Assembly (NCBI RefSeq): GCF_901472535.1
Contig: NZ_LR590470.1
Location: 310,001-374,000 of the forward strand
Direction of reading: 5' to 3'
From: Sphingobacterium daejeonense
Lineage (GTDB): Bacteria > Bacteroidota > Bacteroidia > Sphingobacteriales > Sphingobacteriaceae
DNA: 64,000 bases
Shown here: positions 26,446 to 27,032 of the stretch, in pieces
Position numbering within the stretch: the first letter of the stretch is position 1
Layout: each line of letters opens with the position of its first letter
The notes under the pieces: model-generated
The model's input: the letters and a program-made list of their open reading frames with translations, nothing else
The model's database searches: none
What the model was told of the DNA's origin: nothing
Made by a program: the position numbers and the translations under genes

Positions 26446-26523
26446 GGAGAATTAGCTCAGCTGGTTCAGAGCATCTGCCTTACAAGCAGAGGGTCACTGG
26501 TTCGAATCCAGTATTCTCCACCA
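26446..26523 (+). tRNA. tRNA-Val (anticodon TAC)
   Basis: Full cloverleaf: acceptor GGAGAAT / ATTCTCC, D-arm GCTC...GAGC, anticodon arm TCTGC-CTTACAA-GCAGA with anticodon TAC, T-arm CTGG-TTCGAAT-CCAG, discriminator A, and an encoded CCA (26521-26523). Confidence 0.96.
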
Positions 26524-26534
26524 AAAATAAAAAA

Positions 26535-26609
26535 GGAGGCTTAGCTCAGCTGGTTCAGAGCATCTGCCTTACAAGCAGAGGGTCACTGGTTCGAATCCAG
26601 TAGCCTCCA
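26535..26609 (+). tRNA. tRNA-Val (anticodon TAC), second copy
   Basis: Same body and anticodon as the copy 11 bases upstream. Only the acceptor stem differs: GGAGGCT / AGCCTCC, with both sides changed so that pairing is kept. Discriminator A; CCA is not encoded. Co-transcribed with the first copy. Confidence 0.96.
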
Positions 26610-26619
26610 CTACCGAAAG

Positions 26620-26647
26620 AAAAGCATCAAGAAATTGGTGCTTTTTT
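26620..26647 (+). terminator. Rho-independent terminator after the tRNA-Val pair
   Basis: Stem AAAAGCATC / GGTGCTTTT (26620-26628 with 26637-26645, one G-U pair), eight-base loop, followed by T. Confidence 0.8.
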
Positions 26648-26702
26648 ATTTTTGGTAAAATCTCATTTTCGCCCAAGTTTGGGGTCCGTTTCAAAGCAAT
26701 GT

Positions 26703-26960
26703 ATGTTATACTCATTATATTCCTCCAAAATGGACCATTATTATATCGGTTTTACCAAAGACATCACAAACAGGTTACGAAGACACAATACCAAAAACAA
26801 AGGTGTTACAAATAAAGCCGAGGATTGGGAAATTGTGTATAGAGAATATTTCGATGATAAGTTAGATGCTATGTAAAGAGAAAAAGAAATTAAGAGTTGG
26901 AAAAGCAGGGGCTTAATCGAGAAATTAATTGCCTTAGCTAGTTCAGGTAAATTCTACTAA
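26703..26960 (+). pseudogene. GIY-YIG endonuclease-like ORF with an in-frame stop
   Basis: A single-domain GIY-YIG protein of the short URI type: LYSLYSSKMDHYYIGFTKD (the GIY...YIG pair reads LYS...YIG), TNRLRRHNTKNKG (Arg and His), WEIVYREYF, then DAM, an in-frame TAA at 26874-26876, and REKEIKSWKSRGLIEKLIALA to TAA at 26958-26960. The stop replaces the usual Lys in the AMKREKEIK motif, and the start is short of the normal YVYILYS opening. The ORF lies between an intact tRNA-Val and a relic of a tRNA-Val 3' end, so it is probably the cargo of a small insertion at that tRNA. Confidence 0.78.
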
Positions 26961-26971
26961 AAGTCGGAAGT

Positions 26972-26999
26972 GGTCAATGTTCGAAACCAGTAGCATCAA
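26972..26999 (+). repeat. Relic of a tRNA-Val 3' end (imperfect direct repeat of 26582-26609)
   Basis: The sequence GGTCAATG-TTCGAA then ACCAGTAGC-TC matches the T-arm and 3' acceptor strand of the tRNA-Val at 26535-26609 with one deletion and about five mismatches over 28 bases. It directly follows the GIY-YIG ORF, and the two repeats are about 390 bases apart. Confidence 0.65.
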
Positions 27000-27032
27000 A
27001 TTTCCTTGGAAAGCAATATTTTGTTAGGATTA

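Follow-up and report, generated by a model that had tools for sequence, protein, structure and literature searches.

A decayed GIY-YIG unit beside tRNA-Val in Sphingobacterium daejeonense and a candidate class of minimal tRNA-attached elements

Described systems that resemble the units

The closest known system to the units considered here is that of SegB, a free-standing GIY-YIG homing endonuclease of T-even phages, which cuts within tRNA genes (PMC13096335). The segB gene adjoins tRNA genes of many isotypes and SegB drives tandem amplification of the tRNA-segB segment, likely through homology of the 5' region of a tRNA with the 3' end of segB; its cleavage motif is RAWTSGAAC (PMC13096335). 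This motif is the reverse complement of a T-loop sequence of tRNAs, GTTCSAWTY, a remark of our own that is absent from the available text of PMC13096335. The units share with SegB the presence of a GIY-YIG gene beside tRNAs of many isotypes and the tandem amplification. However, SegB is phage-borne, whereas the units are found in bacterial chromosomes and encode proteins of one domain, 80-90 aa long, with a putative cutting activity; moreover, no palindrome-marked tRNA copy is described for SegB in the part of PMC13096335 available, while the units carry one.

Other systems share single traits with the units. REP/RAYT systems likewise associate short palindromes with a single nuclease gene and include copies that do not contain the ORF, but their nuclease, according to the accessible part of PMC2817692, is a tyrosine (HUH Y1) transposase, whereas the only ORF of the units is GIY-YIG; furthermore, in the units the palindrome is located inside a tRNA copy, and the one palindrome that was searched for has no dispersed copies in the genomes examined. 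Integrative elements with attachment sites at tRNA 3' ends also show the tRNA 3' end at both borders and keep a functional tRNA; the units differ in having no integrase, a size of only ~0.35 kb, a terminator that is also repeated, and the palindrome. The fold and the catalytic core are those of the UPF0213 and SLX1 structure-specific nucleases, although SLX1 differs in having the partner SLX4 and additional domains; we know of no description linking these nucleases to tRNA copies. The literature searched, which was open access with few subscription papers and preprints, yielded no account of GIY-YIG elements linked to tRNA genes in the chromosomes of bacteria, and to our knowledge neither the palindrome-marked tRNA copy nor the duplication of the terminator nor the ORF-less derivatives have a match there or elsewhere. 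This kind of element is apparently undescribed, and it occurs beside many tRNA genes across Bacteroidota and occasionally beyond.

The tRNA-Val locus of Sphingobacterium daejeonense

The window, i.e. the whole stretch of 64,000 nucleotides that was analysed, contains two tRNA-Val genes followed by a dead ORF and a decayed tRNA copy:

26446..26523, forward strand: tRNA-Val(tac), first copy, intact (ARAGORN; Rfam RF00005)
26535..26610, forward strand: tRNA-Val(tac), second of the two, intact; the element is attached here (ARAGORN; Rfam RF00005)
~26621..26648, forward strand: terminator-like hairpin and T-run 3' of the tRNA (sequence)
26699..26960, forward strand: GIY-YIG ORF, pseudogene (PF01541; alignment to L073 and L072)
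26932..26949, forward strand: D-arm relic of the partial tRNA copy (local alignment; alignment to L073)
26952..26969, forward strand: decayed palindrome replacing the anticodon arm (alignment to L073; pattern search of relatives)
26972..26999, forward strand: relic of the variable loop, T-arm and acceptor 3' strand of tRNA-Val (alignment score against shuffles)

A first-pass annotation, made from the letters alone, had recognised an intact tRNA-Val, a terminator and a GIY-YIG ORF with one stop, and ARAGORN, the sequence itself and PF01541 bear this out; it was also right that the tRNA-Val at 26535-26610 is intact, but it had overlooked the other tRNA-Val(tac) just 5' of it. The terminator-like hairpin is nearly identical in sequence to one at an empty site (L008) of a relative (G013). 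The ORF starts with the ATG at 26699 and scores 53.3 bits against the Pfam GIY-YIG family PF01541 with one TAA inside (26874-26876), the part before the stop alone reaching 40.8 bits. In the alignment with L073 as reference, a 2-bp deletion is found soon 3' of the ATG; this deletion and the internal TAA make the ORF a pseudogene. When the stop is read through, the frame enters the D-arm relic and terminates at a second TAA (26958-26960), within the palindrome.

Beyond the ORF, the best local alignment of the tRNA to the relic covers 26972-26997 with a score of 15.5; 1000 dinucleotide-preserving shuffles of the region reached at most 14.0, and no other place in the window exceeded 12.0. The damaged copy of the T-arm and acceptor that had been proposed at this place is therefore real, and the two tRNA tails do lie ~390 bp apart; the copy is however longer than proposed, extending from the D-arm to the acceptor, with a palindrome instead of the anticodon arm. 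In the window this palindrome reads TTCTACTAAAAGTCGGAA, while its counterpart in L073 is perfect, TTCCGACTAAAAGTCGGAA. No second terminator is recognisable 3' of the relic. The whole stretch from the ATG to the acceptor end aligns continuously with the element L073 (G083), and also with L072 (G103), from two other species of the same genus; the window element is probably a decayed member of a class of minimal tRNA-attached selfish elements.

Architecture, tRNA association and protein of the units in relatives

The common order in relatives is an intact tRNA, a terminator, a GIY-YIG ORF of ~80-90 aa, a palindrome-bearing pseudo-tRNA and often a second terminator, for an intact unit of ~0.35 kb. 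The ORF lies immediately 3' of the terminator in G034 (L014), in G010 (L027, Val-gac type), which is Sphingobacterium paucimobilis from its sequence identity with L037-L039, in G077, in G097 and in others; in these the pseudo-tRNA beyond the ORF comprises the D-arm, the palindrome for the anticodon arm, and an intact T-arm and acceptor 3' strand, and is followed by the terminator repeat. The tRNA-Val array itself is widespread in the genus, and in most species the terminator is followed by no GIY-YIG gene. These relatives support the earlier suggestion that tiny GIY-YIG units form a class found next to tRNA genes, the far border repeating the tRNA tail: the architecture recurs at 14 tRNA isotypes, in many Bacteroidota families, in Chlorobiota and in Patescibacteria. 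Scan matches were found in Pedobacter, Mucilaginibacter, Chitinophaga, Flavobacteriaceae, Balneolaceae, Chlorobiota and Candidatus Terrybacteria, at tRNAs that include Val, Met, Pro, Asp, Lys, Arg and Thr; at some of these loci a recognisable second tRNA copy is absent.

That first description had missed much of the anatomy, namely the palindrome, the duplication of the terminator, the tandem arrays, the ORF-less copies and a mirrored topology in which the intact tRNA stands last. The latter is found in L045, L090, L125 and L155, where the ORF reads into the 5' end of the tRNA; in L045, L090 and L155 a palindrome-bearing truncated tRNA copy precedes the ORF. Three Mucilaginibacter units (L051, L053, L054) have no adjoining intact tRNA, yet each contains a pseudo-tRNA-Met with its palindrome; L053 and L054, at least, also have a terminator-like hairpin. 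A homing endonuclease of a group I intron in tRNA was also considered and rejected: the tRNA is uninterrupted, the ORF is placed between tRNA copies and not within an intron or intein, and Rfam analysis of seven loci returned tRNAs only, with no match to an intron family.

Units are also found in tandem, with a period of 354-363 bp. G034 contains six Met-type units in tandem (363-bp period), and at orthologous tRNA-Val sites, whose flanks are 90-92% identical, G097 carries three complete units plus a truncated one (3.5 units), while G034 has one and a short remnant. Several draft contigs begin or end inside or beside units (L037, L041, L044, L052, L053, L070, L075, L080, L096), as expected for collapsed tandem arrays, so that the unit copy numbers in drafts are minima. 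Tandem pseudo-tRNAs without an ORF occur in L188, as three copies of 120 bp, and in L193, L194, L201 and L072. Such ORF-less units, ~97-144 bp long and with the same palindrome, resemble non-autonomous copies; those of L188 are located upstream of tRNA-Met.

Related tRNA loci without the unit, whose existence the first-pass annotation had left to be checked, are found both among the tRNA-Val arrays and at tRNA-Met. The tRNA-Met locus is patchily occupied in the family: a unit is present in L188, L192, L194, L196, L198, L199 and L203 and absent from L189, L191 and L195, whose left flank is collinear with that of the filled sites. No match was found between the right flanks of filled and empty tRNA-Met sites, so that these element-free alleles give no exact insertion junction.

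The strength of the tRNA association was estimated on 70 GIY-YIG loci picked by Pfam domain alone, blind to tRNAs, from 99 Bacteroidota genomes; the sample, made of the top match from each of 30 genomes and of 40 others among the matches listed, is high-scoring and not random. An intact tRNA on the same strand within ~260 bp was found at 16 of the 70 loci (14 just upstream, 2 just downstream) and a tRNA on the opposite strand at none, against ~0.3 loci expected by chance, as we estimate from ~50 tRNA genes in 4 Mb. The enrichment of tRNAs near GIY-YIG ORFs, proposed earlier as a check, is thus far above chance. All collected loci include 61 non-redundant cases with a tRNA upstream; in 49 of them part of this tRNA is repeated on the far side of the ORF.

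Of these 49 partial copies, 42 contain a palindrome whose stem is 6 bp or longer; the same test on the 49 intact tRNAs was positive in 14, mostly with stems of 6-7 bp, and two of the "intact" tRNAs that scored (L072, L073) are pseudo-tRNAs themselves. With stems of at least 7 bp the figures are 33 partial copies and 5 intact tRNAs. The style TCC...GGA is common across isotypes, as in TCCGCC..GGCGGA, TCCCGAC..GTCGGGA and TTCCGACT..AGTCGGAA. Among 18 Met-type copies, two of the six stem pairs change on both sides (C-G to T-A), giving 11 double changes, a number reached in none of 500 shuffles, although it counts sequences and not independent events. The position of the palindrome differs between isotypes: Met, Val and Lys units have it instead of a segment of the anticodon arm, the Arg units L090 and L155 have it within the D-loop, and for one Asp unit (L124) it falls in the T-arm. 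These positions point to putative cut sites in the anticodon arm, D-loop and T-arm, respectively, rather than at the tRNA 3' end, where the first-pass annotation had suggested cutting. The Val-type palindrome TTCCGACT..AGTCGGAA occurs only at the pseudo-tRNA locus (3 copies in G083, 1 in G103) and is absent from the other six of the eight genomes of the genus searched; hence it is not dispersed.

Tyr5, Tyr16, Gly18, Arg26, His30 and Glu62 are invariant in 23 members, a pattern to be expected for active GIY-YIG nucleases. The dN/dS ratio is 0.03-0.23 in the five pairs where dS could be computed, two dS values being high and imprecise; the ORF is under purifying selection. Most ORFs stop shortly past the GIY-YIG core, and the structure model consists of one domain (mean pLDDT 82.5); a separate DNA-binding region after the catalytic domain is absent from the unit proteins, both in sequence and in the model. 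The nearest structures are UPF0213 BH0048 and Slx1 (E 0.002-0.03, probability 1.00), in agreement with the sequence comparison. The stop codon falls within the tRNA copy in 24 of 47 ORFs, often in its D-arm or palindrome. C-termini of the GSNP type, which the first-pass annotation had attributed to such proteins and ascribed to a translated T-loop, occur in none of 64 tRNA-linked proteins, and this argument is not supported.

In a tree of 123 proteins the tRNA-linked members cluster (14 changes against 40.5 when shuffled), and among them tRNA isotype tracks nuclease clade (19 changes against a shuffled mean of 30.9 and minimum of 27). One Met clade covers Sphingobacteriaceae, Chitinophagaceae and Balneolaceae, and is inflated because some of the Met set was retrieved with tRNA-Met DNA. 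Viral contigs, phages and plasmids searched with the L027 protein and the alignment gave no relative at the limits used, the viral scan being weak because it relied on a single peptide pattern.

Possible propagation of the units and alternative readings

Taken together, the idea put forward in the first-pass annotation is largely right and partly supported overall. The units are, on balance, likely to be minimal tRNA-targeted selfish elements that would behave like free-standing homing endonucleases. In a chromosome without the element, the nuclease would cut the corresponding tRNA gene at the position held by the palindrome in the broken copy. Repair of the break would then use a template that carries the element, with the tRNA and terminator providing the homology, and would thereby copy the unit in while preserving a working tRNA. 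The palindrome-bearing copy may no longer be cuttable, or its hairpin may be recognised by the nuclease; unequal recombination between the repeated tails could then account for the tandem arrays as well as for single units, remnants that lack the ORF, and losses. The ORF is probably expressed by transcription running on from the tRNA promoter, as the distance from the terminator to the ATG is in many units no more than a few to some tens of bases. Membership of the SegB-type homing endonucleases is putative: the catalytic residues, the setting outside introns and the element-free alleles fit it, but it is not established, as the cutting is deduced and the proteins have no separate DNA-binding domain. 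The latter point weighs against homing, as do the unmatched right flanks of filled and empty sites and the tree, whose branches are weakly resolved in an alignment of 80 columns. Furthermore, the intact tRNA beside the nuclease gene would stay a target unless cutting in the donor is limited, and within one tRNA isotype descent with loss would also explain the presence of the units.

A rather unlikely alternative is a GIY-YIG equivalent of REP/RAYT systems, in which transposition would be driven by the palindrome: a structure-specific nuclease would act on the DNA hairpin that the palindrome forms, and the tRNA would be no more than a favoured landing place. The TCC...GGA palindromes of most units with their compensatory changes, the branched-DNA nucleases as nearest folds, the ORF-less tandem copies, the portable pseudo-tRNA of the Mucilaginibacter units and the direct repeats flanking tRNA-free ORFs of a sister clade (14 of 30, as against none of 95 control places) are all in its favour, while the confinement of the palindrome to the pseudo-tRNA locus in the Val-type hosts tested and the clustering of nucleases by isotype, which points to the tRNA as target, are difficult to accommodate. 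The recurrence of the arrangement at 14 isotypes in distant families, with strand specificity, is in turn at odds with a tandem tRNA duplication followed by decay, in which a host GIY-YIG gene would be present by chance. We regard this as improbable, even if tRNA-Val genes form tandem arrays in the genus and the window copy itself is dead; palindromes at corresponding places, arrays of ORF-containing units and purifying selection on the ORF leave this reading strained.

Very little probability is assigned to a regulatory or addiction device at the RNA level, with the nuclease or the pseudo-tRNA transcript acting on tRNA maturation or cleavage and not on DNA: the patchy presence, the arrays and the ORF-less copies look selfish, and the characterised GIY-YIG nucleases known to us all act on DNA, although the ORF is joined to the tRNA transcription unit and its end, together with the palindrome, would produce a tRNA-like transcript with a hairpin for the anticodon arm. 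Finally, direct repeats of the tRNA 3' end at both borders could recall the relic of a classical integrase-type element that used this end as attachment site. This has a negligible probability, and for the class it is refuted by the intact ~0.35 kb units, in which the GIY-YIG ORF is the sole ORF between the repeats and no integrase gene is found; the location of the terminator within the repeat and the tandem arrays of the unit also contradict it.

Outside the tRNA-linked members, the tRNA-free GIY-YIG ORFs of the sister clade (among L101-L169, L001) are often flanked by direct repeats, several of which have the style of dispersed palindromes (GAGCGGAGTCGA, TGTCATTCTGAG..., ATACCCGCTTTCGCGGGTATGACA); in the genome of the window, related repeats such as CCCTTCGGCTACGCTCAGGGACCGAACATCC are found on both sides of L001 (G000:C1:2555537-2555749). 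It is conceivable, and we put it forward only tentatively, that UPF0213/SLX1-type GIY-YIG nucleases power a broad and unrecognised group of mini-elements, with a tRNA branch containing palindrome-marked pseudo-tRNAs and a sister branch flanked by direct repeats of REP-like palindromes. If so, many palindromic repeats of Bacteroidota would be mobilised by GIY-YIG proteins, as a counterpart of REP/RAYT with a different enzyme. The units, ~0.35 kb with one gene of ~85 codons, would be among the smallest autonomous mobile elements known; they would account for the abundance of lone GIY-YIG proteins in Bacteroidota, would represent a harmless parasitism of essential tRNA genes by a nuclease and would extend to bacterial chromosomes a link with the amplification that SegB was recently shown to drive in phages.

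The pseudo-tRNAs also have a consequence for annotation. Palindrome-bearing copies of tRNA-Val in L072 (1457-1525, 1832-1900, 1976-2044) and L073 (1938-2011) are labelled by ARAGORN as tRNA-Ile(tat), tRNA-Leu(taa) or tRNA-Phe(aaa), and are not reported by the Rfam tRNA model; pseudo-tRNAs with a palindrome for the anticodon arm are thus a source of false tRNA-Leu, tRNA-Phe and tRNA-Ile calls. The two tRNA-Arg units L090 (G003) and L155 (G109), from different families, have an identical palindrome in the D-loop, CCTGCCTGCCGGCAGGCAGG; in frame it reads PACRQAG, a peptide seen in many metagenome-derived proteins.
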